A stretch of DNA of 57,169 nucleotides from Candidatus Azobacteroides sp. (GTDB taxonomy: Bacteria; Bacteroidota; Bacteroidia; Bacteroidales; Azobacteroidaceae), in contig WRFY01000121.1 in assembly GCA_009783445.1 (NCBI GenBank), positions 1 through 57,169 of the forward strand. The letters are read 5' to 3'. Made by a program: the position numbers and the translations under genes. Each line of letters begins with the position of its first letter. The stretch's first letter is position 1. Below are positions 9,169-34,550 of the stretch, one piece after another. The notes below the pieces were generated by a model. That model was given only the letters and a program-made list of their open reading frames with translations. It was not told the DNA's origin and made no database searches.

Positions 9169-9480
9169 ATGAAAAAGAAACGAAAATTTTTAGTCATATC
9201 GATGTTCTTATTTTCTCTGTTCATTTTTAATAAAATGAACGCGCAACAACCAGGGCTATATGATAATGATAATAGCAATGACAATACGCCTTCAACGTCA
9301 AATGAAGGAGGAAGTACTCAGACAGGTGTTTTTCGTGTTGGCCCGGGAGGCGGCCCAGGTGGTGATCCGGGAAAGGAAGACACGCCTATTGGAGAAGGAC
9401 TGCTTATTCTTTCGGTACTGGCGGGCGGATATGCAGTAATAAAAAAGAAAAAATCAAAAATAAAAAGTAATGAAGTTTAA
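9169..9480 (+). CDS. Small secreted protein with a PxGEG, hydrophobic, basic sorting-type C-terminus
   Basis: A 103-residue protein with a signal peptide (about 1-25, ending MNAQ), a low-complexity Asp/Asn/Gly/Pro linker (DNDNSNDNTPSTSNEGG) and a tripartite tail: TPIGEG, a hydrophobic segment LLILSVLAGGYAVI and the basic end KKKKSKIKS. The layout is that of PEP-CTERM/PID-CTERM or LPXTG-type sorting signals, although this motif is not one I can assign to a named sortase or exosortase. Its gene overlaps the Wza-like gene by 11 bp, which places it in the polysaccharide export operon. Confidence 0.65.
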   Translation: MKKKRKFLVISMFLFSLFIFNKMNAQQPGLYDNDNSNDNTPSTSNEGGSTQTGVFRVGPGGGPGGDPGKEDTPIGEGLLILSVLAGGYAVIKKKKSKIKSNEV

Positions 9481-10282: not shown

Positions 10283-10297
10283 TGAAAAAAATGAAGA

Positions 10298-12679: not shown

Positions 12680-12697
12680 TTAATAAAATAAAAAAAG

Positions 12698-14020: not shown

Positions 14021-14035
14021 AAATATAAAACCTGA

Positions 14036-14084
14036 TTCAAAAGTCCATATATCTTTTATTATCCTTTCTATATGGACTTTTGAA
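14036..14084 (+). terminator. Perfect 16-bp inverted repeat between ompA-like and transferase genes
   Basis: TTCAAAAGTCCATATA (14036-14051) is the exact reverse complement of TATATGGACTTTTGAA (14069-14084), with a 17-nt loop. It follows the OmpA gene stop and precedes the sugar transferase start. A possible TTG start at 14080 falls inside the right arm, which supports the ATG at 14110. It may act as a terminator/attenuator between the export and assembly parts of the locus. Confidence 0.7.
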
Positions 14085-14109
14085 GAAAGGGTTGAAAAAA
14101 CGTATTCTT

Positions 14110-15507
14110 ATGAAAAGGTTGTTTTATATCGTTATAGATCTTTTGATCACGTATGGAAGTATATTTTTGGCATTTTACATATTAGCGAATATCAATATGT
14201 TAGAGGATTTTCAGAGGAATTTTGAAGCGTTCGTAATTATAACTCCTTTCATAGGCCTTTTGTACTTTGTTTTAATGTACGCTTTTGGTTTGTATAGCAT
14301 TACTCGAAAAGAACTTGGCGAGGTGATTTATACCGTTTTTCTCATATCGCTCTGTCTAATGGTTGGCATCATGGGTATTTGCTTCTTTGTGAGGAATATA
14401 GCCTTTGCATTCCCTCGTAGCGTGATTCTTCTTGGCGCTCTTTTCTATTTTGTGTTTCTAACTATCTGGCGTATTTCTGTCTGGGTAATGGAACGGAAGG
14501 CGCATGGTATAAAAACAATCACTATTATAGGGGATGATACGGAGAAATTGCGGACGGCAATTATTCGTAAATATTCCAATCTGTATCATATTGTAAATTT
14601 GTGTAAAGAAGATGATCCTTACTTATCCACAAAAATTCGTTCGGTGGATGAGATATTCATTGGTTCCGATGTTTCGTCACAAACCAGAAATAAAATTTTG
14701 CCGATCTGTATTAAATACGAGAAAAATGTTTGCTTTGTGCCGGAATATTTCGATTTGAGCATTATGGCTTCTTCGTTTCGTAAAACCGATGATATTCCTA
14801 CCTATAGTTTATCCAACATGTCATTGTCGCCGGAAGAAAATTTTGTAAAACGCACTATTGACTTGATTTTTGGAATGGTAGCTTTCATCGTTGCTTTACC
14901 AATCGGCTTAATAGTTTCAATTTTGATAAAATTGGATGGAGGACCAGTGTTTTATGCACAAGAACGGTTGACAGAAGGCGGAAGAAAATTCAAGATACTT
15001 AAATTTAGAACCATGATTCCAAATGCTGAAAAAATTTCGGGTCCTATATTGGCTGGAGAAAATGACCCGCGCATTACAAAAATCGGTCGATTTATTCGCG
15101 CGATTCGTTTGGATGAAATTCCTCAAATAATCAATATTTTGAGGGGAGATATGAGTATAGTAGGGCCGCGGCCAGAACGTTCTTTTTTCGTGGCTCAATT
15201 CGAAAAAGATATTCCCGAATATCATTACCGTTTGAAAGTGAAAGCCGGATTAACCGGTTTGGCGCAAATCGAAGGAAAATACAATACAAGCGTAGAAGAT
15301 AAATTGCGTTATGATCTGATTTATATCAATAATTATTCCATACTGAAGGATATGCTGATCATGCTGCAAACCATTAAAATTTTGTTCATGAAAGAAAGTA
15401 CGGAAGGGGTTGTATCCAATGAGATCGCATTGAGTTCTCAAAAAGAAAAAACAACCCAGCCTTTATGGGAAAAACACGCCATGCCAAGAAGCGTAAAAGT
15501 GAGATGA
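14110..15507 (+). CDS. Initiating polyprenyl-phosphate sugar-phosphate transferase (WcaJ/WbaP type)
   Basis: A 465-residue membrane enzyme. It has four or five N-terminal membrane segments (about 1-130), a middle nucleotide-binding-like domain (IKTITIIGDDTEKLRTAI) and a C-terminal bacterial sugar transferase domain: FVKRTIDLIFGMVAFIVALP, then KFRTMIPNAE, then RLDEIPQIINILRGDMSIVG followed by PRPE, then KAGLTGLAQIEGKYNT. It moves a sugar-1-phosphate onto undecaprenyl phosphate to begin a repeat unit. The ATG at 14110 is chosen because the upstream TTG lies in a palindrome. A second enzyme of this kind is encoded at 54407-55825. Confidence 0.92.
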   Translation: MKRLFYIVIDLLITYGSIFLAFYILANINMLEDFQRNFEAFVIITPFIGLLYFVLMYAFGLYSITRKELGEVIYTVFLISLCLMVGIMGICFFVRNIAFAFPRSVILLGALFYFVFLTIWRISVWVMERKAHGIKTITIIGDDTEKLRTAIIRKYSNLYHIVNLCKEDDPYLSTKIRSVDEIFIGSDVSSQTRNKILPICIKYEKNVCFVPEYFDLSIMASSFRKTDDIPTYSLSNMSLSPEENFVKRTIDLIFGMVAFIVALPIGLIVSILIKLDGGPVFYAQERLTEGGRKFKILKFRTMIPNAEKISGPILAGENDPRITKIGRFIRAIRLDEIPQIINILRGDMSIVGPRPERSFFVAQFEKDIPEYHYRLKVKAGLTGLAQIEGKYNTSVEDKLRYDLIYINNYSILKDMLIMLQTIKILFMKESTEGVVSNEIALSSQKEKTTQPLWEKHAMPRSVKVR

Positions 15508-15523
15508 TTATATTAAAAAGTTA

Positions 15524-15958
15524 ATGCGAATTAGAATGAATGCAACAGTTTACAACTGCAATGTATTTACTTTACAAAAAATACATAATAGGGCGGGGAA
15601 TATTACGGCGTTGAACAATTTTATCGATTTGTCGTTCAAGATAGAGCGGGCATATTATCTATATGATGTGCCGGGAGGCGAGGTACGGGGGGGGCATGCT
15701 CACAAAGAATTGCAACAATTAATTATTGCGGCAAGTGGGGGGTTTGATGTAACTCTGGATGACGGCATTAATAGAAAGACAGTATCCTTGAATAGGCCCT
15801 ATTATGGTTTATACATTGTTCCTGGTATATGGCGGGACTTGAGTAATTTTTCTTCTGGATCGATTTGTTTGGTGTTAGCTTCTCATAAATACGATGAAAA
15901 TGATTATGTGAGAGATTACAGCGAATTTAAAAAATTAAGAGAAAGATATAGAAGATAA
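15524..15958 (+). CDS. FdtA/QdtA-family sugar 3,4-ketoisomerase (cupin)
   Basis: A 144-residue single-domain cupin with the family signature FKIERAYYLYDVPGGEVRGG followed by HAHK, then LNRPYYGLYIVPGIWRDL. FdtA-type enzymes convert dTDP-4-keto-6-deoxyglucose to the 3-keto isomer, the step before 3-amination. Both His residues of the HAH motif are kept. It starts 16 bp after the transferase gene. A second, diverged copy lies at 22133-22537 on the other strand beside the aminotransferase gene. The remnant HAD gene begins immediately after its stop codon. Confidence 0.85.
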   Translation: MRIRMNATVYNCNVFTLQKIHNRAGNITALNNFIDLSFKIERAYYLYDVPGGEVRGGHAHKELQQLIIAASGGFDVTLDDGINRKTVSLNRPYYGLYIVPGIWRDLSNFSSGSICLVLASHKYDENDYVRDYSEFKKLRERYRR

Positions 15959-15961
15959 TAG

Positions 15962-16423
15962 ACCCCTAATGCGGAAAAAATCATAGCAGAGTGGGTAAAA
16001 AGAATTGAGTATAAAAAATATTTGCGATTAGACGTTTTGTATCCGGACGCTTTACAAGCTTTGGAAATTTTATCGGAAAGATACAATCTATTTTTAATTA
16101 CTGCACGTTCAAATCAACAAAATACTTGTTGGCAGTTATCTCAATTGAATATTTTTCGCTATTTTTGCAAAGCAATAGTGGTCAAGAGCAAGGGAAATGC
16201 AGGATTAAATAAGTATAATGCAATCAGCACGCTGCCTATTTTTGCTGTGATTGGAGATACGGAAACTGATTTTGCATTATCGGAATACGCGCAATGTCTC
16301 TTTTATCCTTTAAATAACGGATTTCGTTCGCTGGATTATTGGAAGCAACGAAAACAAAAGTCTTGTCAAAACATGGAGGAAGTTGTTCTCTTGATGAATG
16401 AAATAGAATTTAATTTCAGGTAA
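15962..16423 (+). pseudogene. N-terminally truncated HAD-family hydrolase remnant
   Basis: The frame is open from the codon after the stop at 15959-15961 and reads NAEKIIAEWVKRIEYKKYLR, then LYPDALQALEILSERYNLFL, then ITARSN, then VIGDTETDFALSEY. The later HAD motifs (the Thr/Ser motif II region LITAR, the Lys motif III region and the GDTETD motif IV) are present, but the N-terminal nucleophile motif DxDGT and the cap are missing, and there is no good start codon in the 5' part (only a TTG at 16022). It looks like a hydrolase gene that lost its first 200 or more bases when it was joined to the cupin gene. A translated fragment would lack the catalytic Asp. Confidence 0.65.
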
Positions 16424-16465
16424 AACTTGACACAACATTCAAATAAATGAGGTAAATAATATATT

Positions 16466-17398
16466 ATGGGCGAAAGTAATGAAACACGCTATCAGGGTCC
16501 TTTAGTTTCGGCAATAGTTCCATCATACAATCATGCACCGTATATTCAAGAGTGCGTTTTAAGTATTGTAAACCAAACATATAAAAATATCGAAATCATT
16601 GTGATCGATGATGGTTCGAGTGATAATTCCAGAGAAATTCTGGAAGAAATGCAAAAACGTTTGGGCTTTCGGCTGGAATTTCAGGCTAATCAAGGTTTAT
16701 CTAAAACCTTGAATAAAGGTATTCGGTCTGCCCAAGGGAAGTATATCAGTTGTTCAGCTTCCGACGATTTTTGGGAATTAGACAAAGTTGAGCGACAAGT
16801 TGCTTTTTTAGAAAATCATCCAGAATATTCTTTTGTGTGTGGGAAAATACACATGGTAGACGCTCAAAGTCGGATCATTGAAGGATTGACAATTATTGAC
16901 CCCGTGCGCGATCCCATTGAAAGCGTGAAATTCGAATCGTTGTTGGAGCGGAATTGCATTCCGGCCCCCAGCGTGATGTTTACCAAAGAAATATGGGAAA
17001 AATGCGGAGGTTATAATGAAAATACAATTGTCGAAGATTTTGATTTTTGTTTGAAAGTGGCTTCCAAAAGTAAAATAGTATATATTGACGAGTATTTTGC
17101 CAATTACCGATGGCATGGACAAAATATAACCGTTTATACACTGAAAATGTGCGATGCTGTCTGGGAGATTGTTCAGAGTTGGAAAAACCAAATGGATGCT
17201 GGCTTATATAAAAAAATAGCGCATAGAAGAAGTTCTTCCTTTTTCAGCAGATTGGCGCGAAAACACAAAAAAGAGTCGTTTAAATATTTGAAATACTGTA
17301 ATTCCTATTGGGATTCGCTCATAGTAACGAATTACATGAAAGGATTTTATAAGTTACTTTTTTGTTGGAAAAAAAATGACGGAACGGTCTGGCAATAG
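16466..17398 (+). CDS. Glycosyltransferase family 2
   Basis: A 310-residue cytoplasmic enzyme with a GT-A fold: VSAIVPSYNHAPYIQECVLS, then IEIIVIDDGSSDNSREIL (the DDGS nucleotide-binding motif near residue 50), then SCSASDDFWELDKVE (the DxD-like metal site) and VEDFDFCLKVASKSKI. It is an inverting transferase that should add one sugar to the lipid-linked repeat unit. It is probably cotranscribed with the polymerase gene 24 bp downstream. The donor and linkage cannot be told from sequence. Confidence 0.88.
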   Translation: MGESNETRYQGPLVSAIVPSYNHAPYIQECVLSIVNQTYKNIEIIVIDDGSSDNSREILEEMQKRLGFRLEFQANQGLSKTLNKGIRSAQGKYISCSASDDFWELDKVERQVAFLENHPEYSFVCGKIHMVDAQSRIIEGLTIIDPVRDPIESVKFESLLERNCIPAPSVMFTKEIWEKCGGYNENTIVEDFDFCLKVASKSKIVYIDEYFANYRWHGQNITVYTLKMCDAVWEIVQSWKNQMDAGLYKKIAHRRSSSFFSRLARKHKKESFKYLKYCNSYWDSLIVTNYMKGFYKLLFCWKKNDGTVWQ

Positions 17399-17422
17399 AT
17401 AAATGAACGAAAGGGTAGAACA

Positions 17423-18724
17423 ATGAAGTTTTTTTTTAAAGTAGTCGTTTTTTTCTTGATCGTATTCAATTTTAGGTTACCAATAGTTTATAATTCGGTA
17501 GCAATAGCCGCCATATTGGCGAGTATTTATTATGTGTTTATTCGAAAAAGCATACCTTTTTCTTATTTCTTTTTTCGATACAATACAATAATATTGGCAG
17601 CTACCATTCTGTTGACGTTGATAACACTGTCTTTTACAATTGCTCATGACGAATTTTCTGTCCTTTTCACGAAACGGTGCTTGGTAATGCTCTCCATGTT
17701 GCTGGCTCTCGTTTACGTATTGCCCTTGTTGATTGAAGGGAACGAAAAAACGGCCTATGAAGAAGCGGCATTTATTCTCTGTTATGCTTTTGCCTTGCAA
17801 GGAGCTATCCATTTGACTGGTTTTTTAGTTCCGCCTGTAGGCGATTTCCTTTTCGATATGAAACCAGAGGGAACGAAGGCAGCGATTTTAGATCCAAGCG
17901 CTAATATAGATAAGTTCAGAGCTTATGCTTTGACAGGCAGTATTTTTTTTGAATTGCCCTCTGCTTATGGAGTGGCTTGCATAATGTTTTTACGAATTCA
18001 ATTAATGGAAGATCAGCAATATATTACAAGCTATAAAAGTTATGCTATCTTTTTTCTGCTGATCATAGGAATTTGTCTTTCCGGAAGAACTGGTTTTGTG
18101 GGTATAGCTTTAGGTTTGGTATGGTATCTATTTTTTGCATATAATAAATTAGGCGCTATTTTTAAGACTGGGGTAAGAGTATTGGCGGGATATGTTGTTT
18201 TACTATGCGCCTTTTATCTTTTTTTGTCGCCGAAGCAACAAGCTTCATTTGTAGACGATTTATTTCCTTTTGCTTTTGAAATGTATTATAATTATGTAGA
18301 TGAGGGGCAATTGAGAACTGCTTCGACCGATGTGACGATGAAGAATTTTTATTATCCTTTAGAAGATAAAACCCTACTATATGGAGATGGCGTGGGTTCC
18401 AGAGAGCACCAATTCTATAAAGGTACAGATGCAGGGTACATGAATGCTTTGATTTATGGCGGTATTCCTTATCTTTTGGTTTTACTTGTTTACCAAGCAT
18501 TGTATTTTATTCAACCTGTGTCGGTCGCTTATAAGAGAAACACAAGGGAAAATATGATCGATTTATCCTGTTTTGTTCTTCTTTATATTTATATGTTGAT
18601 TTTGGAATACAAAGATACGGCCTTAGGAACGCAGCATCTTACAGAAGTAATATTTCTTTTTTTGGGAAGCTGTTATTTGATAAAATATTACGAAAATCAA
18701 GAAGAAAGCGAAAATGAAAACTAA
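17423..18724 (+). CDS. Wzy-like O-antigen/capsule polymerase
   Basis: A 433-residue integral membrane protein with about ten to twelve hydrophobic segments. A central segment LSGRTGFVGIALGLVWYLFF resembles the conserved core of the O-antigen ligase/polymerase superfamily, and there is a large loop near residues 270-345 with DGVGSREHQFYKGTDAGYMN. These proteins link repeat units in the periplasm. The assignment rests on topology and gene context, since Wzy sequences diverge strongly. Its 3' end overlaps the next glycosyltransferase gene by 11 bp. Confidence 0.75.
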   Translation: MKFFFKVVVFFLIVFNFRLPIVYNSVAIAAILASIYYVFIRKSIPFSYFFFRYNTIILAATILLTLITLSFTIAHDEFSVLFTKRCLVMLSMLLALVYVLPLLIEGNEKTAYEEAAFILCYAFALQGAIHLTGFLVPPVGDFLFDMKPEGTKAAILDPSANIDKFRAYALTGSIFFELPSAYGVACIMFLRIQLMEDQQYITSYKSYAIFFLLIIGICLSGRTGFVGIALGLVWYLFFAYNKLGAIFKTGVRVLAGYVVLLCAFYLFLSPKQQASFVDDLFPFAFEMYYNYVDEGQLRTASTDVTMKNFYYPLEDKTLLYGDGVGSREHQFYKGTDAGYMNALIYGGIPYLLVLLVYQALYFIQPVSVAYKRNTRENMIDLSCFVLLYIYMLILEYKDTALGTQHLTEVIFLFLGSCYLIKYYENQEESENEN

Positions 18725-19883
18725 AATTCTCTATTTACTTCCGGGAGGACTTTTTAATTCGGGTGGAATGGAACGGGTGATTACTCTTAAAGCAAATTAC
18801 TTAACTGAAAAATTAAATTACGATGTTTCTATTGCGACTACGGAGCAAATGGGACGTCCCATTTTTTATCCGGTATCTACACAAGTGCATCTGTATCATT
18901 TGGATGTGGGAATTCATGTTAATTTCGGTAAAGAATCTTATTTGGAAAAATGCGTTTCCCGTTTCCAAAAGACGAGGGAATATAAAAAAGTTTTGGAGAA
19001 TTTATTGAAAAAACTTCGACCTGATTTTACCATTTCTACCTTGGGGGGATTAGATATTGGTTTTCTGAACAATTTGGATGATGGTAGTATCAAATTGGGC
19101 GAACTGCATTTTCCGGGAAATTACCGTCAATTGATGGCTCGCAAACTATCCAATGCTTTTCTTCCAAACTTGGTAGCTCGATGCCGGACGCAAGAATTTA
19201 AAAATAAATGTGAGAAACTTTCCCGGTTGGTGGTATTAACGGAAGAAGAAAAATTATCGTGGAAAAATCAACGAAATATAGAAGTGATCCCCAATCCTTT
19301 GCCTTTTTCTTCTTTGTCGGAATCGTCGACAACTCAACAGAAGAAAGCTATTGCTGTGGGACGACTAGCCTACGAAAAGGGATTTGATCTATTGATTGAA
19401 GCATGGAAAAATGTTTTCAAAAAACATCCCGATTGGGAGTTGAATATTTATGGCAAGGGAGATCAAAGAGATGCTTTAATTCGTTTGATTAAAGATAGCG
19501 GTTTGGAAGGGGTAGTTAAAATAAATGATCCCTCAAACGATATTCAAAAACTTTATATAGAACATTCCATGTTGATTTTGCCTTCGAGATATCTGGAAGC
19601 GCTTCCAATGGTTTTGATAGAAGCGATGGCTTGCGGACTTCCTTTAGTCGCCTTTGACGCACCCTGCGGGCCGAAAGATGTCATTATCGACGGAGTAAAC
19701 GGTTTTCTGGTTGAATCCGGAAATAAGGAGAAATTGGCGGAAAAAATCAACGATTTGATTGAATCGGATGAATTAAGAAAATCCATGGGAAATGCCGCTC
19801 AAAAAGCCTCGTTGAATTATAGTCCAGATCGAATAATGGAACGCTGGCATTGTTTATTTGAAGAATTGAAAAATGGAAAATGA
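18714..19883 (+). CDS. Glycosyltransferase family 4
   Basis: A 389-residue GT-B enzyme. The N-terminal half has the glycine-rich acceptor region (LLPGGLFNSGGMERVITLKA). The C-terminal half has VGRLAYEKGFDLLIEAWKNV and the EX7E donor motif in LEALPMVLIEAMACGLPLVA. It is a retaining transferase for polysaccharide assembly. It overlaps the polymerase gene (11 bp) and the next transferase gene (4 bp), so it belongs to one translationally coupled unit. It resembles the amylovoran-type GalE/AmsK group, but the substrate is not assignable. Confidence 0.88.
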   Translation: MKTKILYLLPGGLFNSGGMERVITLKANYLTEKLNYDVSIATTEQMGRPIFYPVSTQVHLYHLDVGIHVNFGKESYLEKCVSRFQKTREYKKVLENLLKKLRPDFTISTLGGLDIGFLNNLDDGSIKLGELHFPGNYRQLMARKLSNAFLPNLVARCRTQEFKNKCEKLSRLVVLTEEEKLSWKNQRNIEVIPNPLPFSSLSESSTTQQKKAIAVGRLAYEKGFDLLIEAWKNVFKKHPDWELNIYGKGDQRDALIRLIKDSGLEGVVKINDPSNDIQKLYIEHSMLILPSRYLEALPMVLIEAMACGLPLVAFDAPCGPKDVIIDGVNGFLVESGNKEKLAEKINDLIESDELRKSMGNAAQKASLNYSPDRIMERWHCLFEELKNGK

Positions 19884-21013
19884 AAACAATTGTTGTATCC
19901 GGAATTAATTTGTTTACGGGAGGAACGCTCAAAGTGATGCAGGATTGCATCGCCTCTCTGTCTTCTTTTGCAGGAGATGAATATGCAATTATTGCATTGG
20001 TACACAATGAGAATCAGTATTCTTCCTTTGCTAATGTACGCTACATTTCTTATCCTAAATCGCGCAAATCCTATGTATACCGTTTGTATTGCGAATATTG
20101 GGGATTTAAAAAACTTTCCCGACAATTGAAGCCGTACCTTTGGTTATCCTTGCACGATGTGACTCCCAATGTGGAAGCTGAAAAAAGGATGGTCTATTGC
20201 CACAATTCATTTCCTTTTTATAAGGCAGGATTACGGGGCTTATGGTTGCAAAAAAGTATTTTTCTGTTCAGTCTGTTTTCCAGATATATGTACCAAATCA
20301 ACATTCAAAAAAATGATTATGTAATCGTACAGCAACAATGGCTGAGGGAGGCTTTTCAGCGAATGTTTTCGATTAATAATATAGTTGTTTCTACTCCGGT
20401 ATATGAACGATCTGTCTCTAAAAAAGGAGTGAAAATTCTTCAAAAACAGACAGATAAATTCATGTTTTTCTATCCGGCCACTCCGATGATTCACAAGAAT
20501 CTGGAAGTTGTTTGCCAAGCAGTGGCTATTTTGGAAAAAGAAGGCGTGTATAGCATGGAAGTGCAGCTCACTACCAATGGTACGGAAAACAAATATGCGG
20601 GAAGCATTTATAAAAAATACCACTCGCTAAAAACGTTGCGTTTTTGTGGTTTTTTGAAGCGGACAGAAATGGATCAGTATTATCAGAACAGCGATTGTTT
20701 GGTTTTTCCGTCAAAAGCGGAAACTTGGGGTTTGCCTTTGACAGAAGCAAAGGAACACCACAAATCCATTTTAGCAGCCGATCTTCCGTATGCACGGGAA
20801 ACAGTGGGAAAATACGATCAAGTAAAATTTTTCGATCCGGACAATGCAGAGGAATTAGCCGAATGCATGAAAAATTGCATGAAAGGTACAATTGCATACG
20901 ACCAAACGCACGAAATTATTTATAATAAGCCATTTACCCGTAACTGGGATGAGCTGTTCCGTTTTTTACTTTTGGGTGAACAGCCTTGCGAATCGTCTGA
21001 AAAACGCTCATGA
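19880..21013 (+). CDS. Glycosyltransferase family 4
   Basis: A 377-residue GT-B enzyme. It begins [20 protein letters not shown], has a C-terminal half with [20 protein letters not shown], and has the EX7E motif in [17 protein letters not shown]. The ATGA overlap with the preceding GT4 gene shows translational coupling. Its 3' end overlaps the convergent aminotransferase gene by 6 bp, so this is where the plus-strand part of the polysaccharide operon ends. Confidence 0.85.
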
Positions 21014-22129
21014 ACGATAGGCGCAAAGAACTTGAGTTACTTTTTGTATTTCTTCTTCGCTCATTACAGGACTGATGGGTAAGCTGACGACTTCTCGATG
21101 TATTTTTTCCGTGACCGGAAATGACAATGAATTCCATTCTTTGTAACATTGCTGTTTATGGGGAGGAATGGGATAATGAATCAACGTTTGAATATCGTGT
21201 GCTGTTAGAAACGATTGCAACTGATCTCTGTTTTTCGTTTGCACAACAAAAACGTGTTGCACATGCGATTCGCGATGTTCGGCGGGGATGGGAAAAACAA
21301 TCTGTTCATTCTTGCCGTTTTCAAGATAATATTCGGCAATTTTTCGCCTGATTTCGTTTTCCGCATCTAAATATTTCAACTTAACAGAAAGAAAAGCAGC
21401 TTGTATTTCATCCATCCGGCTATTTAAACCTTGGTATTGATTGACATATTTTTCTTGCGAGCCATAGTTTGCCAAAGCTCGAACGACAGTAGCCAATTGG
21501 TCGTCGTTTGTGGTAACGGCTCCGCTATCGCCTAAAGCGCCCAAATTTTTTCCCGGATAAAAACTATTGCCTGCTGCCTCTCCTAAATTTCCCGTTCGTT
21601 TTTTTGTCCCATCTGCATAAAAAAAGTAAGCTCCCACGGCTTGGGCATTGTCTTCAATCACTTTTAGTTGATATTTTTTTGCAATGTTTTCCAACTCTTC
21701 CGACCAGCAGGTTCTTCCATACAGATGTACCACAAGAATCGCTTTTGTCTTGGACGTAATCGCTTGTTCAATCAAAGAAATATCTAAGTTGAAAGTGCGA
21801 ATGTCGGGTTCGATCAACACGGGTTTCAAGCGGTTGTCCGTAATGGAAAGAATAGTAGCAATATAAGTATTGGCAGGAACTATGATTTCGTCGCCTTCCT
21901 GCATGCAGCCTAATTCTTTATATGCTTTCAGGATCAATCTCAAAGCATCTAATCCATTGGCACAAGCAATGGTATGTTTTGTCCCTATATAATTGCAAAA
22001 CTGTTGTTCAAAAGTTTTAACTCGTTCGCCTAACAAAAACCATCCGGAATCTATTACTTCGCCAGCAACTTGTTTCAGTTCGCCAGCATGTTGTGCATTT
22101 ATTTTTTGTAAATCAAGAAATTTTATCAT
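21008..22129 (-). CDS. DegT/DnrJ/EryC1/StrS-family sugar aminotransferase (FdtB-like)
   Basis: A 373-residue PLP enzyme. Signatures: [20 protein letters not shown] at the N-terminus, [17 protein letters not shown], a central acidic motif [11 protein letters not shown] and the PLP lysine in [17 protein letters not shown] (near residue 190). Next to an FdtA-type isomerase it most likely makes dTDP-3-amino-3,6-dideoxyhexose (Fuc3N or Qui3N) from the 3-keto sugar. The isomerase gene lies 3 bp upstream on the same strand. No acetyltransferase for the amine is adjacent. Confidence 0.87.
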
Positions 22130-22132
22130 GAG

Positions 22133-22537
22133 TTAATCGTTTCTTAAATCTTTAAATACTTCGTAATCTCTTATATAATCATTTTCGTCGTAAATGGTAG
22201 AAGACAAAATCAAAGCTAACGAATTGGTTGAGAAGTTTTTAATTTGTCTCCAGATTCCATTGGGGACATAGAGCCCGTAATAGGAACGGTTGAGATAGAA
22301 TGTTTCTTCTTCTTTTCCATCATTCAATAGCACGTCAAAACTTCCGGATAGGGCAACGATAAATTCTTCGTTTTTTTTGTAGGCATGTCCCCCCCGTACC
22401 TCTCCTCCCGGCACGTCGTAAATCCAATACGCTCGTTCAATTTTAAAAGGCGTATTTTTGAACTCTTCTATCACAGATAAATTTCCCCGTTCATCTAAAA
22501 TTTTAGGCAGTTGAATTATTTTTACATTACTTATCAT
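22133..22537 (-). CDS. FdtA/QdtA-family cupin, second copy with HAY in place of HAH
   Basis: A 134-residue cupin clearly related to the one at 15524-15958: FKIERAYWIYDVPGGEVRGG, then HAYK, then LNRSYYGLYVPNGIWRQI, then YDENDYIRDYEVFKDL. The family is expected to isomerise dTDP-4-keto-6-deoxyglucose at C3/C4. In this copy the second His of the HAH motif is Tyr, which may alter or abolish activity. It lies 3 bp before the aminotransferase gene and forms a two-gene unit with it, so it is the copy placed to feed the transaminase. Confidence 0.82.
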   Translation of the reverse strand: MISNVKIIQLPKILDERGNLSVIEEFKNTPFKIERAYWIYDVPGGEVRGGHAYKKNEEFIVALSGSFDVLLNDGKEEETFYLNRSYYGLYVPNGIWRQIKNFSTNSLALILSSTIYDENDYIRDYEVFKDLRND

Positions 22538-22617
22538 GAAAAACAGTATTGATTATTATAGACATTCTTTTCATTGTGCGTCGATTCTGTTTGTTTTTTT
22601 ATTTAGAAAATGACATA

Positions 22618-22625
22618 CAAAGGTA
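22618..22625 (-). promoter_or_regulatory. Possible -7 box for the isomerase/aminotransferase unit
   Basis: CAAAGGTA on the plus strand reads TACCTTTG on the minus strand, matching TAnnTTTG, 81 bp before the cupin start. No clear -33 element at the right spacing. Confidence 0.4.
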
Positions 22626-22698
22626 CAATTTTTTTTTGTTTTATCCATCGGATCAAATATTTTTTTTACTCTTTATACATTCAAACCCAAATTTTTAG

Positions 22699-22706
22699 TA
22701 TCTTTG
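22699..22706 (+). promoter_or_regulatory. Bacteroidota -7 box TATCTTTG
   Basis: A perfect TAnnTTTG match 89 bp upstream of the GT4 gene at 22796. With the minus-strand box at 22618-22625 it makes this 258-bp gap a divergent promoter region. Confidence 0.5.
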
Positions 22707-22795
22707 CTTCGGATGAAAAAATGTGCTATAAATATATGCCTGAAATCATTTCACACATTTCAAAACTGCATCTATATTATTGAAAATAAGGCAAA

Positions 22796-23911
22796 ATGAA
22801 TAAAAAGATACTGCATATCCCTAACTATTATTCTCCTCATATTGGAGGAATCGAAGATGTATGCCATACGATTGTATCGGCTATGACTAATTACCAGCAT
22901 GAGGTAATTTGTTTTCACGATGAAAAAAAAACACAAAAAGATTATTATGAAGGAATACGCATTATCCGATGCGGCGTATTCAAAAAACTGTTCAGTCAGT
23001 CTATTTCCTTTTCTTTTTATAAGGAATTGAAAAACGTATTTGAAAATTTTGATCCGGATATTGTCCATTTTCATGGGCCAAATCCATTGGTTAGCGTATA
23101 CCTATTGATGTTGTTACCCAAAAAAACAAAACTGATTGTCCACTGGCATTCGGATATTGTCGAGCAAAATTTGTTGTATGCTTTTTATCGTCCGATTGAA
23201 AGACAATTATTATCGCGGGCGAATAAAATAGTGATAACAAGTCCCGCCTACCTTGCGGGATCGAAAGCCTTGTCGGCTTGGACAAGCAAAGTGTCGGTTA
23301 TTCCAAACACCCTCTATACCGAAAAATTGCAAAAACAAGCGGGAGACGACGAAGCTGTTGAAAAAATAAGAAAACTGTACGGAGGGAAAAAAATCATTTT
23401 TACCTTTGGACGTCATGTTTCTTACAAAGGACTTCATCATTTGATCGACATCGCTCCATTGCTTAAAGAAGAAGCGGCAATTGTTATTGCCGGACAAGGC
23501 CCCTTGAGCGAAACTTTGAAAAAAAGGTCGAATCATCCGTCTTTGCATTTTCCTGGTCGATTGACAGATGATGAATTACGGCAATATTTATACGCATCCG
23601 ACCTTTTTGCTTTCCCTTCCGTTACCCGGAATGAAGCGTTTGGAATCGCTTTGGCCGAAGCCATGTACTGTGGTCTTCCAGCAGTCACCTTTACTATTCC
23701 GGATTCGGGAGTCAATTGGGTTTGTGTTCACGGAGAAACGGGTTTGGAATCGGAAAATGGAAATACGCAAGCTCTTGCTTTCGCCGTGAATCAATTGTTA
23801 ATGGATCCTGTTTTGAGAAAAAAAATGGGAGCAAACGCTTCTCTCCGAGCAAAAAACTTTTTTACGACAGACACAATCAAAGAGAAGTTGATCGATTTAT
23901 ACAATGATTAG
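22796..23911 (+). CDS. Glycosyltransferase family 4
   Basis: A 371-residue GT-B enzyme: HIPNYYSPHIGGIEDVCHTI (N-terminal Gly-rich loop), PDIVHFHGPNPLVSV, LIVHWHSDIVEQNLL, FGRHVSYKGLHHLIDIAPLL, and the EX7E motif in NEAFGIALAEAMYCGLPAV. It is a typical capsule/O-antigen mannosyl- or glucosyl-transferase type. It has its own promoter and is transcribed away from the isomerase/aminotransferase pair. It closes the polysaccharide locus. Confidence 0.87.
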   Translation: MNKKILHIPNYYSPHIGGIEDVCHTIVSAMTNYQHEVICFHDEKKTQKDYYEGIRIIRCGVFKKLFSQSISFSFYKELKNVFENFDPDIVHFHGPNPLVSVYLLMLLPKKTKLIVHWHSDIVEQNLLYAFYRPIERQLLSRANKIVITSPAYLAGSKALSAWTSKVSVIPNTLYTEKLQKQAGDDEAVEKIRKLYGGKKIIFTFGRHVSYKGLHHLIDIAPLLKEEAAIVIAGQGPLSETLKKRSNHPSLHFPGRLTDDELRQYLYASDLFAFPSVTRNEAFGIALAEAMYCGLPAVTFTIPDSGVNWVCVHGETGLESENGNTQALAFAVNQLLMDPVLRKKMGANASLRAKNFFTTDTIKEKLIDLYND

Positions 23912-23960
23912 GCGCTTCGCAAAAAAACATACCGGTTGAGAAATCCGGATCGTTTCCCTT

Positions 23961-25109
23961 TCAAGGTGAATCCGTCTTATTCGATATAATGTAGAGAGGG
24001 AGAGCAACTGTCTCTTTTCTCAATTTTATACCAAAATTACTTTCCAAGTCTTCACTCATCAAGTTGTCGTATCGATAATGAAAAGTCCAGTCGTAGAGTT
24101 TGTTATCGTTTCCTTTGTAGTAATAAATATTTTTTTTTATGTCGCTCAGCAGGTTCGCAACCTCTTTCAATGATATATTGTCCGCTTCGACACGATCATT
24201 TCCTACAATATAAGTATGGTCGCCGCCCAAATTTATCTGTTTGTTGTCCCATAACAGCTTAGGTTTGACGACCTCCAAAACGTAAACCTCCAACTGTTTG
24301 CTTTCGATCCGGAGGTTTAACGATAAGTGACTTTCAATCAGATGTAAAATATCAGTTTTTGATTTTGACAATTCTGATCCGCTGCAACTCATCGAAACTC
24401 CATAGTCCGTAATTCCATCGAATACGATCTGATAACTCGAGCAATCGGTCAGATATTTGATCAGTCCCGAAAGAGGGCCGGAATAATAAAATGTGTCGTT
24501 ATTGTTATATATTTTCTTTTCTACCGAGGATTGTTGGGCGTCCAATGGACTCTTCTCGGGTCGTATGGGTTGCAATGGAGCGTTTGAAGGGCTTGCATTT
24601 TGTACAGCAACAAACAAGTCGTTCCAGTTCTTGTTCGGTTTCGATTTTATTTGTGAAGCGTAATTATCTATCATGCTGGCTGTAATATCTGAAGGATGTC
24701 CTCTATACAATACTTTTCCGTCCATTGAAAGCAATATGGCATAAGGACGCCTTTCTACCTTAAAAAGTTTTATCATGCCGTTCGACAGATGGTCTTTCAT
24801 CACAGTGAGTCTGATAGGCCTTTTTTGCAAATAAGTCAAAATAGTCTTTTCTCTTTCGTCGGTTACCGAAACGATGAATACATCGTTCGGTTTTGTTTCC
24901 TGCAATATTTCCAATTGTTCAGTAGCCGGCGCACAGGGAGCACACCAGGTAGCCCAGAAATCAATAATCAAAAGCTTTTGATTATTGAAGTTCGTTATTT
25001 TATTTTCAGATATGACTTTCTCAATCTTATAAGGGGTTTGACAGATGGCAGATAGAGAAACAAACATCATACCGATGAGACGAATAGATATCATGCAATT
25101 TTTATGCAT
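23961..25109 (-). CDS. TlpA-like thioredoxin fused to a DUF3738-like domain
   Basis: A 382-residue secreted protein. It has a signal peptide (ending SAICQ, about residue 24; an internal Met at residue 6 is an alternative start), then a thioredoxin fold with the redox site WATWCAPCAP (about residues 52-61) and the cis-Pro region RRPYAILL. The second half (about 205-375) reads like DUF3738: GLIKYLTDCSSYQIVFDGIT, KQLEVYVLEVVKPKLL, then YDWTFHYRYDN and FGIKLRKETVALPLYII at the end. The first half should reduce or oxidise periplasmic disulphides. The second half's role is unknown. It is single-gene and convergent with the GT4 gene. Confidence 0.8.
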   Translation of the reverse strand: MHKNCMISIRLIGMMFVSLSAICQTPYKIEKVISENKITNFNNQKLLIIDFWATWCAPCAPATEQLEILQETKPNDVFIVSVTDEREKTILTYLQKRPIRLTVMKDHLSNGMIKLFKVERRPYAILLSMDGKVLYRGHPSDITASMIDNYASQIKSKPNKNWNDLFVAVQNASPSNAPLQPIRPEKSPLDAQQSSVEKKIYNNNDTFYYSGPLSGLIKYLTDCSSYQIVFDGITDYGVSMSCSGSELSKSKTDILHLIESHLSLNLRIESKQLEVYVLEVVKPKLLWDNKQINLGGDHTYIVGNDRVEADNISLKEVANLLSDIKKNIYYYKGNDNKLYDWTFHYRYDNLMSEDLESNFGIKLRKETVALPLYIISNKTDSP

Positions 25110-29810: not shown

Positions 29811-29818
29811 TACTTTTG
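29811..29818 (+). promoter_or_regulatory. -7 box TACTTTTG before the GTPase cluster
   Basis: TACTTTTG matches TAnnTTTG, 120 bp before the first gene of the GTPase/membrane cluster. A T-rich tract replaces the -33 element. Confidence 0.45.
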
Positions 29819-29938: not shown

Positions 29939-31075
29939 ATGACTAAATCAACAAAAACACCTAACTTTATTAAATTTTTATACTTAGCTATAAGTATAAT
30001 TTGTTTTGGGTTCGGCACTTTACATACCTATCTGGGATTCCGCGTGTTAAATATTGGAGGTTCTGTTTACGGAAGTATTTTTTTGGCTGTATTGATATTA
30101 ATGGCATTGATCACTTGTTATTATTATGCAATTAAAGGCAAAAAATTAGCTCTTGTTTTTTATCTTGTTTTTGCAATGGCATTTTTTATATCCAATCTAA
30201 ATTATTTTTATCCTCAATATTCAAAAAATTCCTTGATAAAGGAAGAAGCCGGAGAAGTAAAAAATATTTTAAATAACTATAAGGAAAAGATTGATAAAGA
30301 AGTGAATCCGACGCAATCGGATTATCTTCGGAAATTGCAGGAATTGAATGATCACAAGACCTCGCTGATTCGTGAAATAAGGGATAGAGGAGGTTTTGGC
30401 ATTTATGCTACAAAAGAATTAGAGCAATTCAATAAATTGGCGGGAAGCTCCATAAGTCCCGATCGAGATTTGGGAAAAACCGATGCGGAACGCGAAGAAA
30501 AGGCGCTTCATTTTGAAAAAGAGTTGAATAATGCCATCAAGACATTTGAAAAAAATACCTTAAAGGAACAAGATCAGGCTGCCATCGCTTTGTTTGAAGC
30601 GAAAGATGAAATGAACGAAAAATACATGTATTATAGCGATACTTTATTACACATTGTGAAAGATAAAATCAATATTAACCTCAATGATATTGATTCGGTT
30701 CCATACATACCGGAGATAAAGGTTATTACGGAAATAGTCGATTTTCTGGACGCTATTAGCGTAAAGGTAAATACGGCCAAAGACATGCAATTGTTGACCC
30801 CGTTTGAAAAAGATAAAAAGGGCGCCTTGCTGATGCCTACCGTAAAAAATTTAGGACGGGCAGAACATACGATTAATTCTATCATTAAACGAAGAGACAA
30901 AGGGGATACATGGGTATCCATTATTCTATGTTTTTTCATTGACATCATTATCCCGTTATTTATGTATTTTGTCATACGAAAAAATAGTGGTGAAGAAACG
31001 GATGCGGGCAATGAAAAAAGGAAGGGAAGCGGAGGCCCTAAAAGTTTAGGAGATTACAAACGGCATTTAAAATAA
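29939..31075 (+). CDS. Membrane protein with coiled-coil loop (GTPase cluster gene A)
   Basis: A 378-residue protein I do not recognise. There are three hydrophobic segments near the N-terminus (FLYLAISIICFGFGTLHTYL, VYGSIFLAVLILMALITCYY, LALVFYLVFAMAFFISNLNY), a large charged, mostly helical domain (about residues 105-335, rich in Lys/Glu), and one C-terminal segment (VSIILCFFIDIIIPLFMYFV) followed by a short Gly/Lys-rich tail. It begins a tight run of four genes (gaps of 11, 12 and 2 bp) that includes a P-loop GTPase-like protein. Both termini of the big domain are next to the membrane, so it could sit in the periplasm. Confidence 0.75.
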   Translation: MTKSTKTPNFIKFLYLAISIICFGFGTLHTYLGFRVLNIGGSVYGSIFLAVLILMALITCYYYAIKGKKLALVFYLVFAMAFFISNLNYFYPQYSKNSLIKEEAGEVKNILNNYKEKIDKEVNPTQSDYLRKLQELNDHKTSLIREIRDRGGFGIYATKELEQFNKLAGSSISPDRDLGKTDAEREEKALHFEKELNNAIKTFEKNTLKEQDQAAIALFEAKDEMNEKYMYYSDTLLHIVKDKININLNDIDSVPYIPEIKVITEIVDFLDAISVKVNTAKDMQLLTPFEKDKKGALLMPTVKNLGRAEHTINSIIKRRDKGDTWVSIILCFFIDIIIPLFMYFVIRKNSGEETDAGNEKRKGSGGPKSLGDYKRHLK

Positions 31076-31086
31076 AGCTTGGTATT

Positions 31087-32190
31087 ATGGAAGATATGGT
31101 ATTTGATAAAAACTTGATCGACGATCAACAAGAAAGCGCTATTAATGTTCGAAAAGAAAACAAACAAAAATTACTTTTGGATTTACGTAATGAAGAAATT
31201 CAAGAAGTATTTGCTATTGGATTGCAATCGGTCGATAATCAGGATCGAACCTTAAAAGGGCGAAAACGCACCATTATTATTCCGATTGGTTTTCCCAATG
31301 CTGGGAAAACGCAATTGATTTCTTCATTGCTTTATTACGCTAAGTGCAGCTTTAGCGAAGAACGGAGTATTGAGATTCAGGAAAACGTGAAAGACGAAAT
31401 ATACCCTCTTTTCAGCATCGAAGAAATTGATAAAAGTATAAACGACATTAATCCTTACGCTCAAGGACGCGCGGAAATGAATCGTCTGATTAATAGTTAT
31501 ATAAAAGGAGAATTAGCAGGGACTACCGCCACTGGCACTTTGAATTTGATCGGAATAAACGTTATTCCGAAAGATTTGAAAAAGAAAAATTTGCCTAAAT
31601 TGAATTTAGCTTTTATAGATGTAGCAGGCGAAGACATAAAAAAAATCAAATTTGATTTAGATAAAGGAGAAAAAGGTTTCTTTACTCACAAATTCGATGC
31701 AGTATTTAGAGGATTAAACGATAGCGATCATCCCGTCATTTTTATGTTGATAACTCCCTATCAGACGGTTGGAGAAAATGAACACATGAATGAAGCTGAT
31801 TTGCATGTCGATTTCTTAAACCACATAAGGGATTACTACCCTGAATTGTTCAAACGGGCTTCTTTTTATGTTTTTATTTCGCAATGGGATAAATGCAAGG
31901 ATGAAAATATGACTGACATCGAATTTGTGAAGAAAAACCGGAGCAAAATTTACGATAAAATCGAAGAATGCAGGAAAGAATATGGTACAGTTGTTAGTTA
32001 TATGGGATATTCGATTGGTCAAATTTCTGAAGTGGTGAAAAATGACGATGGAAGCAATTCAACGGCTAAATTAAGGCGAATTAATTACATCTGTCCTTCT
32101 GTGGTATGGAATGATTTGTACTATCGCTGTACAAATAAACGTTTGAACAAAAAAACTTTGTGGAATCGAATCATAGACTTTTTTAGATAA
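31087..32190 (+). CDS. P-loop GTPase-like protein (GTPase cluster gene B)
   Basis: A 367-residue soluble protein. The Walker A (G1) motif is IPIGFPNAGKTQLISSLLYY (about residues 71-90). A Thr-rich stretch AGTTATGTLNL could be the switch I (G2) region. The Walker B/G3 motif is LAFIDVAGED (DxxG form). The sequence FYVFISQWDKCKDE is in the place of G4 but reads SQWDK rather than NKxD. This looks like a divergent TRAFAC-type GTPase; GTPases of conflict-type systems such as the 'double-GTPase' proteins are a possible relative. It has no membrane segment, while its three neighbours all do, so it is probably the nucleotide switch of a membrane complex. Confidence 0.75.
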   Translation: MEDMVFDKNLIDDQQESAINVRKENKQKLLLDLRNEEIQEVFAIGLQSVDNQDRTLKGRKRTIIIPIGFPNAGKTQLISSLLYYAKCSFSEERSIEIQENVKDEIYPLFSIEEIDKSINDINPYAQGRAEMNRLINSYIKGELAGTTATGTLNLIGINVIPKDLKKKNLPKLNLAFIDVAGEDIKKIKFDLDKGEKGFFTHKFDAVFRGLNDSDHPVIFMLITPYQTVGENEHMNEADLHVDFLNHIRDYYPELFKRASFYVFISQWDKCKDENMTDIEFVKKNRSKIYDKIEECRKEYGTVVSYMGYSIGQISEVVKNDDGSNSTAKLRRINYICPSVVWNDLYYRCTNKRLNKKTLWNRIIDFFR

Positions 32191-32202
32191 TTGGCGATTT
32201 TT

Positions 32203-33261
32203 ATGGATAATAAAGAAAAGGTTACCTATTTGATTTTTTTTGGAAAATCGCAAAGTTTTACTGTCAGGGCTTTTGATCGTTATTCCTTTTTCGAAAATTT
32301 AGATCAGGTTATACCCGATTTTAGTTTGTTGGAATCAAAGATTTTTACCGTCGACCGAGTAGACAATAAACCCATTTTGGCAAAATATACATTCAAAAGT
32401 GTAAAAAACTATACCTTAATAAAATTGTATGCTTATGCGCAAGCTTTCGACAGCAATCGAGTAGCAGGCAGCATCTATGGAGTCGCGTTTTTATCGGAAG
32501 GCAATCTTTGTTTGTGTCCGGATAATATCAAATTGTTGAAGGATGTTACGGATTTTTTTGCGGAAATTTGTTTGCAGAACAATAAATTTAAGAACAGTGA
32601 TTTCAAATCGGAAGTAATTGGAATCTGGCGGCAATTTTGCGATTTAGGCGGTTTTTCAAAAATACGTTATGTCGAAAATGCTCGTCCCGTCAAAAAGGAA
32701 ACGATAGGAGTTTATGTGCAGTCGATTGTCGACGCAGAAGATTTGAATTTCGAACGAATGTATTTTTCGGAAGACCTTGAACATTTGAAGCGTACCCATG
32801 AAATATGGAAAGACCGGTTTGTGATTTGTCATAAAGTGAAGGGAGAATATATAGTATATAAAGAGCCTAATCCAACTCAATCGAAACAACTATCGTCTAA
32901 AACCGAACCCGATTCGGACGACTTGCATACAATTGTTGAACAGACTTCGAAAATCAATGCCCTTAAATTTGAAAATCATAAAATACGAAAAGCAAAAAGA
33001 AAGTTTAAAAGACTTTCATATTTTCTGGCTCTTTTATTGATTGCCACATTAGCTGTTGTTGCTGTTCGTTTTTATGGCGGAGAAATGGATGGAGCAGGCG
33101 TAAGACACTTAAAATTTCTTCAGGAGCAAGTGGAATTAACCAAAAAGGAAACTCAAAAAAATACCGAAGCAATAAAAAGCCTCGCGAAAGAGATAGAACA
33201 ACTAAGACAAACCATTGATAAAATGAATAATAATAACAAAAACGAAAATCATAAACAATAA
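32203..33261 (+). CDS. Single-pass membrane protein with C-terminal coiled coil (GTPase cluster gene C)
   Basis: A 352-residue protein from the ATG at 32203 (a TTG at 32191, directly after the GTPase stop, would add 4 residues). Residues about 1-150 form a globular domain (VTYLIFFGKSQSFTVRAFDR, then AQAFDSNRVAGSIYGVAFLS) that I cannot assign but which is the sort of N-terminal adaptor domain found next to GTPases. One membrane segment (about 272-294, LSYFLALLLIATLAVVAVRF) is followed by a 50-residue coiled coil (ELTKKETQKNTEAIKSLAKE, then IEQLRQTIDKM) that would be periplasmic. Confidence 0.7.
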   Translation: MDNKEKVTYLIFFGKSQSFTVRAFDRYSFFENLDQVIPDFSLLESKIFTVDRVDNKPILAKYTFKSVKNYTLIKLYAYAQAFDSNRVAGSIYGVAFLSEGNLCLCPDNIKLLKDVTDFFAEICLQNNKFKNSDFKSEVIGIWRQFCDLGGFSKIRYVENARPVKKETIGVYVQSIVDAEDLNFERMYFSEDLEHLKRTHEIWKDRFVICHKVKGEYIVYKEPNPTQSKQLSSKTEPDSDDLHTIVEQTSKINALKFENHKIRKAKRKFKRLSYFLALLLIATLAVVAVRFYGGEMDGAGVRHLKFLQEQVELTKKETQKNTEAIKSLAKEIEQLRQTIDKMNNNNKNENHKQ

Positions 33262-33263
33262 CC

Positions 33264-34130
33264 ATGAATAAAGATTTACAGACAGTTCTTAAAAAGAAGG
33301 AAGATGAAGAAACAAATTTGTTTCTGATAAAAGGAAGGATTACACTTAAAACGTATTTTTTTCGTTTTATGTTTTGTTTAATTTTATATGCCTTCGTGTG
33401 GATGACTTGTAAGTATTATGAACAAGCTGGCGTTGAAAAAGTTTTCGGAATAGACCCTGAGCGATACTGTTTTTTTCTGAAGAATATCGTTTTATTTCTA
33501 ATCCTTATTTTTCTTTTGATCCAGCGAATCAAAAGAATGCACGACATCAATAAAAACGGATGGTATAGCGTGATCCCTTTTTATGTTTTCAAAAGTGGAA
33601 CGAAGGGACCGAACAACTATGGAGTTGATCCGAAAGTCGAATTTCCACAATACTTTGATCAGAGAGAAGATTTTGAAAGGCAAATTACCGCTTTGTTAAA
33701 GAAAAAGAAAAAACGACGATTCATTTATGGTTCTGTTTTGGGAGCTTACCTTCTCATCTTTTTGGCTTCTTTCATCCGATTTAATCAGAGCATGCCGCCG
33801 GAGGTTGCTGAAGAAACGATAGAAGATGATTCTATAGTGACGAATGACGATATTCTGGGGAAATATACCGTCAAACAGTTGCATTATGACGATACGAAAA
33901 CAGAGCCGATGTATGCAGATGTGGAAAGCAATGACGAAAATACATTTGATATTTGCTTAAAAAGCGAGTCGGGTGACCAGAAAATCACTTTTTCGCGCGA
34001 GGGAGATGAAACCTTATATTCGGAGCAGCTGGGGACGGGAACGATCAAGCATTATGAATCTTTAACTACGAAAAGAATTAGCTTGACGTTTATCGATAAA
34101 AACAATGTTGTATGGTATTTTACAAAGTGA
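33264..34130 (+). CDS. DUF805-like membrane protein with C-terminal beta domain (GTPase cluster gene D)
   Basis: A 288-residue protein. Residues about 20-125 match the DUF805 pattern: GRITLKTYFFRFMFCLILYA, then IQRIKRMHDINKNGWYSVIP, then GTKGPNNYGVDP. This gives two or three membrane segments. A further segment follows (FIYGSVLGAYLLIFLASFIR, about 152-171), then an acidic linker and a C-terminal beta-rich domain (ILGKYTVKQLHYDD to VVWYFTK) that is not part of DUF805. It lies 2 bp behind gene C and closes the four-gene run. DgkA follows 33 bp later. Confidence 0.75.
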   Translation: MNKDLQTVLKKKEDEETNLFLIKGRITLKTYFFRFMFCLILYAFVWMTCKYYEQAGVEKVFGIDPERYCFFLKNIVLFLILIFLLIQRIKRMHDINKNGWYSVIPFYVFKSGTKGPNNYGVDPKVEFPQYFDQREDFERQITALLKKKKKRRFIYGSVLGAYLLIFLASFIRFNQSMPPEVAEETIEDDSIVTNDDILGKYTVKQLHYDDTKTEPMYADVESNDENTFDICLKSESGDQKITFSREGDETLYSEQLGTGTIKHYESLTTKRISLTFIDKNNVVWYFTK

Positions 34131-34163: not shown

Positions 34164-34550
34164 ATGAAACACGAAAAATTCTCGATACAGGAGCAATTGA
34201 AAAGTTTCCAATATGCTTTTAACGGCTTAAAAATACTGATAAGCGAAGAACCTAAGGCTCGCATTCATCTTGTAGCCTCCTGTTGTGCAGGGATAGCGGG
34301 GTGGGTATTTCGGATATCGAAGAACGAATGGATCGCCGTGATTTTATGTATTGCTGGAGTATGGGCTTTGGAAGCGGTCAATTCGGCTATTGAAGATTTA
34401 TCCGACTTTGTTTCAATCGAACAGCACGAAACGATAAAAAAAATCAAGGACTTATCTGCGGCAGCGGTATTCATAGCGGCTATTGCAGCGGCGATTATCG
34501 GAGTGATTGTGTTTTTACCTAAAATAATAGGAATATTATATAGCGATTAA
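34164..34550 (+). CDS. dgkA: Diacylglycerol kinase family protein
   Basis: A 128-residue small integral-membrane kinase. Motifs: SFQYAFNGLKILISEEPKAR, EWIAVILCIAGVWALEAVNS followed by AIEDLSD (the ExxNSAIE motif of the active site), IKKIKDLSAAAVFIAAIAAA. In this group the substrate may be diacylglycerol or undecaprenol; undecaprenol kinases of the same family recycle the lipid carrier used for wall and capsule synthesis. The ATG at 34164 is preferred to a TTG at 34137. It may be cotranscribed with the GTPase cluster. Confidence 0.9.
   Translation: MKHEKFSIQEQLKSFQYAFNGLKILISEEPKARIHLVASCCAGIAGWVFRISKNEWIAVILCIAGVWALEAVNSAIEDLSDFVSIEQHETIKKIKDLSAAAVFIAAIAAAIIGVIVFLPKIIGILYSD

Follow-up and report, generated by a model that had tools for sequence, protein, structure and literature searches.

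A gene trio built around a relative of DO-GTPase1, with predicted membrane partners, in Candidatus Azobacteroides and other Bacteroidota

The window analysed here, 57,169 nt of the forward strand of contig WRFY01000121.1 (assembly GCA_009783445.1) of Candidatus Azobacteroides sp., contains an apparent operon of four open reading frames (ORFs), called genes A to D below (Table 1). All four lie on the + strand, separated by gaps of 11, 12 and 2 nt, which agrees with the original prediction when the ATG at 32203 is used for gene C. The longest ORF of gene C opens further upstream, at TTG 32191; the ATG was taken as the start because the close relatives P0177 and P0227 begin at the corresponding residue. 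Judging from sequence comparison, gene B has GTPase motifs and is a relative of DO-GTPase1, the order A-B-C recurs in other Bacteroidota and relatives, and gene D has a DUF805 domain.

Table 1. Coordinates of the genes and of their observed or predicted features in the window
Feature	Positions	Strand	Basis and remarks
TACTTTTG	29811..29818	+	Spotted by eye, upstream of gene A
Gene A	29939..31075	+	378 amino acids; ORF, hydropathy, relatives; four predicted membrane segments
Predicted periplasmic domain of A	30206..30913	+	Between third and fourth segments; helical by eye
Gene B	31087..32190	+	367 amino acids; GTPase related to DO-GTPase1
P-loop GFPNAGKT of B	31288..31311	+	Residues 68-75; GFPxAGK[ST] in 45/45 homologues
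G3/Walker B DVAGED of B	31618..31635	+	Residues 178-183; D[VIL]AG[ED]D in 44/45 homologues
G4-like SQWDK of B	31879..31893	+	Residues 265-269; [STA]xWD in 45/45 homologues
Gene C	32203..33261	+	352 amino acids counted from ATG; ORF, relatives, hydropathy, AlphaFold model
Predicted longin-like domain of C	32221..32667	+	Residues 11-159 from TTG 32191; AlphaFold model, VIA-align
Predicted membrane helix of C	33010..33066	+	Residues 274-292; hydropathy
Predicted periplasmic coiled coil of C	33094..33246	+	Residues 302-352 from TTG; hydropathy, AlphaFold model
Gene D	33264..34130	+	288 amino acids; ORF, Pfam DUF805, hydropathy
DUF805 domain of D	33321..33623	+	Residues 20-120; PF05656, 42.7 bits vs cut-off 25.7, E 8.9e-11
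C-terminal tail of D	33831..34127	+	Residues 190-288; predicted periplasmic; other tails or none in other loci

Gene B, single-copy in its own genome, contains all three nucleotide-binding motifs that had been claimed for it. The looser pattern D..G[ED] is present in 45 of the 45 homologues, a few of which have D replacing that E, and E takes the place of the first D of G3 in the distant loci; the W-D pair of G4 is invariant also in nine canonical DO-GTPase1 rows. PMC7159879 gives a conserved Walker B glutamate as a DO-GTPase1 feature, and the window protein, with DVAGED, has it. Compared on its own with the Pfam family PF19975 (DO-GTPase1), the protein scores 17.1 bits (E 0.0036), below the curated cut-off of 27, and for this reason is termed here a relative and not a Pfam member. 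The family as a whole scores better: 16 of 19 aligned rows match PF19975 at E <= 0.1 (best 1.4e-8), 17 of the 45 homologues have a precomputed PF19975 annotation, and the cut-off is passed by B relatives in three genomes, G365, G354 and G222 (in G222 together with in-frame neighbours). Profile comparison by hhalign gives 98.8% (E 4.9e-17) against canonical DO-GTPase1 and 95.4% (E 1.7e-8) against DO-GTPase2. The guess that B is akin to the double-GTPases thus stands on family-level Pfam matches, on hhalign and on motif conservation, and B may be regarded as a predicted GTP switch. No match of window B to the Ras family was found in Pfam; one B relative matched Gtr1/RagA (E 0.0014). Sequence matches of B in PDB to a reductase (E 0.0018) and a tRNA ligase (E 0.047) were judged to be chance, and PDB profile searches with A, B, C and the canonical rows gave nothing decisive.

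A scan of genome contigs with B yielded 8 loci, and genome searches with B added more. Single-sequence searches with the window proteins detected A and C beside B in L003-L007, L009, L010 and L044 (the L008 sequence starts within B). In L039, L041 and L042 they detected A next to B; they gave no C in L039-L043 and no A in L040 or L043. When family profiles were used, A-B-C was seen in order at 16 distinct loci (the window, L003-L007, L009, L010, L039-L044, L093 and L094), a count that excludes duplicates such as L001, L011, L012 and L038 and includes the close kin L004/L005 and L006/L009; most of the locus sequences are themselves in the profiles, so that the profile E-values are not independent. 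Kinship between the two kinds of C rests on hhalign (90.5%). Gene A stands first in each unit seen, and spacing, by script-called ORF starts, is 3 to 25 nt between A and B and -8 to 98 nt between B and C. With A as bait, 8 of 252 genomes gave a match, seven of them genuine (G000, G365, G389, G354, G222, G306 and G157), and B and C adjoin A in all seven; five of these were already bait rows known via B, which leaves G306 and G157 as new finds. The remaining match, in G211, is transporter-like by eye and was discarded, with no B or C match at its locus. One more locus, L083, was found via B only (E 5e-9), and its A-like and C-like genes were judged by eye. With 45 homologues of B and the A-B-C order in other genomes, the set is more than a chance arrangement. 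The expectation that all three partners would be conserved beside B held for A and C; D was found only in the nearer group, at 8 loci (the window, L004, L005, L006, L008, L009, L010 and L044), and not in L007, L039-L043 or L083, in a search that left out L093 and L094 and in which L003 ends inside C. Divergence patterns of A, B and C are similar (r 0.88-0.93), which is compatible with a complex but also with common descent.

The distribution is patchy. B occurs in its own genome and in 1 of 145 other relatives, in 7 of 392 phylum genomes (own included), and, within one family, in 3 of 249 genomes, of which two give modest or weak scores. PF19975 matches were obtained in 15 of 296 phylum genomes, five of which pass the cut-off: G174 and G319 are canonical, with GAP1-N1, and G354, G365 and G222 are of the A-B-C kind. 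Among the ten genomes below the cut-off, G459 (L042) is of the A-B-C kind and the other nine matches are weak. At E <= 1e-3, there were no relatives of B in phage, plasmid or IMG/VR collections, and none of C in IMG/VR.

Hydropathy and flanking charges were used to predict the topology of the three membrane partners. The earlier description of C, with one membrane segment and a periplasmic coiled coil, agrees with the hydropathy profile and with the AlphaFold model, and the portion preceding the segment is predicted to be cytosolic, alongside B. Longin domains have the element order beta-beta-alpha-beta-beta-beta-alpha-alpha. The model of C follows this order, with a short first helix (residues 44-47), and 29 of the 33 top rows in its structural comparison are one kind of entry; the fold that C resembles belongs mostly to regulators and adaptors. 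The cytosolic domain of C is thus predicted, on the strength of the model, to have a longin-like fold. At the sequence level, window C has no match to a longin family or to the MglB/roadblock family in Pfam at E <= 1, and the rows of the A3 alignment gave no longin family among 25 of 38 families listed. One may argue that the resemblance is just a common alpha/beta arrangement, in which case C would be a scaffold of unrelated origin and regulation of B would fall to A or to B itself. This objection touches one step and overlaps the other readings; the strong enrichment of one kind of entry among the top rows speaks against it, and so does the partner gene, which encodes a GTPase, the usual client of the longin fold. 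We find it doubtful, yet deserving of a substantial minority of our belief.

Other assignments of C were tried and rejected. As GAP1-N1 it is unsupported by sequence: it reached 0.1%, with scores of 11.6 and 12.1, lower than the best of 44 decoy comparisons (18.9), and the best alignment sits on a look-alike stretch, Y-x-[FA]...R-x-G; Chou-Fasman prediction on GAP1-N1 was no guide, the same crude method being right for just 54% of C residues. Weak matches of C to spanins and helical families stem mostly from its helix. Residues 158-230 match a phrog of unknown function (E 5.8e-4). In L044 the tail of C is a LysM domain (E 8.1e-6), and a further LysM protein is encoded between the C and D genes (E 3.7e-12); the C-like gene of L083 likewise has a LysM tail (E 5.2e-7). 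That gene is followed by one (L083:7718-8638) whose product, a CxxC-containing membrane protein by eye, shows a pair of similar repeats in its outer part and has no Pfam match.

Protein A has its membrane segments at residues 10-28, 47-65, 70-88 and 328-346, so that both the four segments and, by eye, the large helical domain that had been described for it are recovered. Residues 90-325 are predicted to be periplasmic, and the cytosolic tails are short. Weak tetraspanin matches (8 of 14 rows, best E 6.2e-6; window A 20.7 bits, cut-off 32.1) were read as membrane-helix noise, and A was rejected as a GASH protein (0.2% against the GASH profile, no GASH match in Pfam).

The DUF805 assignment of D is confirmed above the curated cut-off, and about three membrane segments are expected (31-49, 68-93 and 153-171). 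Its tail varies: L008 has a version like that of the window (288 amino acids), L004 and L005 have versions of 224-230 amino acids, L006 and L009 of 665 amino acids, with two DUF805 stretches in L006, L010 has DUF1036 and a thrombospondin-type repeat (the latter below cut-off), and D of L044 is tail-less. Beside D in L044 lies a gene (L044:123-1349) for a protein with N-terminal membrane segments and a DMSGS sequence like a vWA metal site by eye, with no Pfam vWA match.

The reading that we favour, tentatively and at somewhat less than even confidence, is that A-D make up a single G-protein switch spanning the inner membrane; C would regulate B according to envelope signals sensed by A and C. 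The predicted periplasmic parts of A, which would contribute a large outer domain, and of C may receive these signals, perhaps sensing the cell wall or the state of the envelope. C, predicted to combine a membrane anchor, a regulator-like domain beside B and a periplasmic tail, would be the natural coupler of outside to inside. Its longin-like domain would control the GTP cycle of B, binding and regulating it as an activator, an exchange factor or a scaffold, and GTP-bound B would presumably be the active form. D, with its variable tail, may be a later-added, optional modulator or output. The unit would probably relay envelope signals inward, in a manner resembling that of small G proteins in animal and yeast cells, and the idea of a membrane-linked GTPase switch, already raised by the original prediction, stands on the kinship and motifs of B. 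An aspartyl protease gene beside some relatives suggests proteolysis as one possible output.

The same three predicted membrane partners, with their predicted periplasmic parts, could instead belong to a machine for envelope maintenance or transport, in which B would act as a motor GTPase to move A, C and D or as an assembly GTPase to put them together. The protein TagF of the type VI secretion system (T6SS), one of the structural neighbours of C, fits this option; a literature search for TagF together with longin gave nothing relevant. By eye, however, no gene for secretion, pili or gliding was spotted alongside A-B-C in the loci read, the patchy distribution is unlike that of a core machine, and the fold of C resembles mostly regulators and adaptors, all of which makes such a machine quite improbable.

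Another possibility is that the unit belongs, as a membrane-bound branch, to the DO-GTPase conflict (anti-invader) systems: B would be a threshold switch, GAP1 and GASH would have their counterparts in C and A, and once triggered, some membrane component or an accessory protein would kill or arrest the cell. The DO-GTPase1-like character of B, the order helical protein - GTPase - third protein, parallel to GASH - GTPases - GAP1, the patchy distribution and the variation of D tails among loci are all in line with this. So are some of the genes seen in neighbour scans, which covered a sample of chosen neighbours. Restriction genes occur near two distant-type units, with GmrSD (E 5.2e-31) and DUF6602 genes about 1.8 kb beyond A in L039 (10716-13690), and HsdM (E 1.4e-114) and two HsdS (E 2.3e-31 and 1.1e-27) about 3.4 kb beyond A in L043 (7720-11816). 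Large RHS-repeat proteins are encoded directly beside A in distant-type L042 (169-3792) and L094 (5227-10563), and an IS110-type transposase lies near the L044 unit. A gene for a CHAT protease with TPR is next to D on the opposite strand (L010:7991-10888), and an aspartyl protease gene adjoins the unit in L005 (E 4.2e-14) and L083 (E 1.6e-10), with a 126-amino-acid ORF in L004 matching the beginning of that domain (E 6.2e-4); peptidase effectors are found among the DO-GTPase systems described in PMC7159879. On the other hand, PADLOC matched none of B, C and D, and A only at E 0.14, relatives of B are absent from the mobile-element collections searched, no toxin was recognised in the unit of the window, nor anything toxic among the varying D tails and adjacent protease genes elsewhere, and the neighbours of the window unit are housekeeping genes by eye, with no restriction, RHS, transposase or CHAT-type gene seen. 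The defence role once offered as an option therefore keeps circumstantial support from the restriction genes of L039 and L043 and is weakened on these other counts. We regard it as unlikely, if not by a wide measure, and envelope signalling would suit the anatomy of the proteins better.

The surroundings of the operon are as follows. Upstream lie purN (Pfam) and, by eye, acpP and fabF; downstream, a dgkA-like gene (Pfam) and then, by eye, genes for a ribosomal protein and serS. The short sequence TACTTTTG resembles by eye the Bacteroidota -7 box, TAnnTTTG. At 19 other purN loci fetched from the same genus (L019-L037), A is within 1.5 kb downstream in none, and fabF is kept upstream in 14. The dgkA-like lipid kinase gene (window 34164-34550, same strand) starts 33 nt past D. 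It has no match in 9 of the 10 same-genus genomes searched, whose completeness varies, and the sole match, in G016, has one internal TGA; the gene may have arrived together with the operon. Tight linkage of the two was rejected, as phmmer found a nearby dgkA only in L093 among the fetched A-B-C loci. Elsewhere, an apparent cluster of polysaccharide export and glycosyltransferase genes was seen by eye at 9470-24000 of the window, and LytTR response regulator and propeller-type histidine kinase genes are upstream of the operon in L006 (2705-6434), with ORFs of equal lengths at the same place in L009.

Among the papers listed by our literature searches, none was seen to describe this operon, and a search for DUF805 together with GTPase gave nothing relevant. 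Bacterial G-protein signalling operons that are known are few (MglAB, conservons); the present one would be a variant built into the membrane, with a predicted GTPase regulator that is itself a transmembrane protein. D shares the PF05656 match with DUF805 membrane proteins and differs from them by an extra membrane segment, variable tails and linkage to a GTPase unit. In PMC7159879, DO-GTPase systems are defined by a GTPase and GAP1, with GASH or FNIII proteins, and transmembrane components occur in 67% of them; a DO-GTPase near psp operons has a predicted role in membrane stress according to PMC11237479. The canonical order GASH - GTPase - GTPase - GAP1-N1 is seen in L062 and in five annotated plasmid loci. 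The present unit resembles these systems in its DO-GTPase1-kind GTPase with the Walker B glutamate, in the helical gene upstream and in the partner gene downstream, but differs in having a single GTPase where those have two, in lacking a zinc-ribbon GTPase and a recognised effector, and in its three predicted integral-membrane partners. Since GAP1-N1 and GASH were searched for and not found (GAP1-N1, PF20012, has no match in the genome that carries the operon), the operon is not classed with DO-GTPase/GAP1-N1 systems. As a three-gene system, it would suit a direct test of the role of DO-GTPases, hitherto known from gene neighbourhoods as far as the accessible accounts go.

MglA/MglB and the conservons or actinobacterial G-protein systems (PMC13343842), of which the conservons add a sensor kinase-like protein, likewise combine in an operon a G protein with a small alpha/beta regulator; in contrast to them, C is longin-like by its model and not a roadblock protein, is predicted to be membrane-anchored, and belongs to a unit without a histidine kinase. 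PMC3521125 derives longin domains from roadblock proteins of the MglB type, and the operon bears on longin-type control of GTPases in bacteria beyond roadblock proteins. A broader view, speculative and rather improbable in our estimate, would make A-B-C an inner-membrane longin-GTPase relay, with C as a transmembrane regulator that senses the cell wall on the outer side and sets the DO-GTPase on the inner one, and GAP1-N1 a second, diverged longin, so that the DO-GTPases as a whole would play in bacteria the part that Rag-GATOR/FLCN and Rab-DENN control plays in eukaryotes. In eukaryotes, Rag GTPases work with GATOR1 and FLCN-FNIP, and Rabs with DENN or Mon1-Ccz1, in each case a GTPase with a longin-domain regulator at a membrane. 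C has no shown sequence kinship to these regulators and, being bacterial, would span the membrane; if its modelled fold is right, the operon shares with the Rag and Rab systems the pairing of a GTPase with a longin-type regulator at the membrane.

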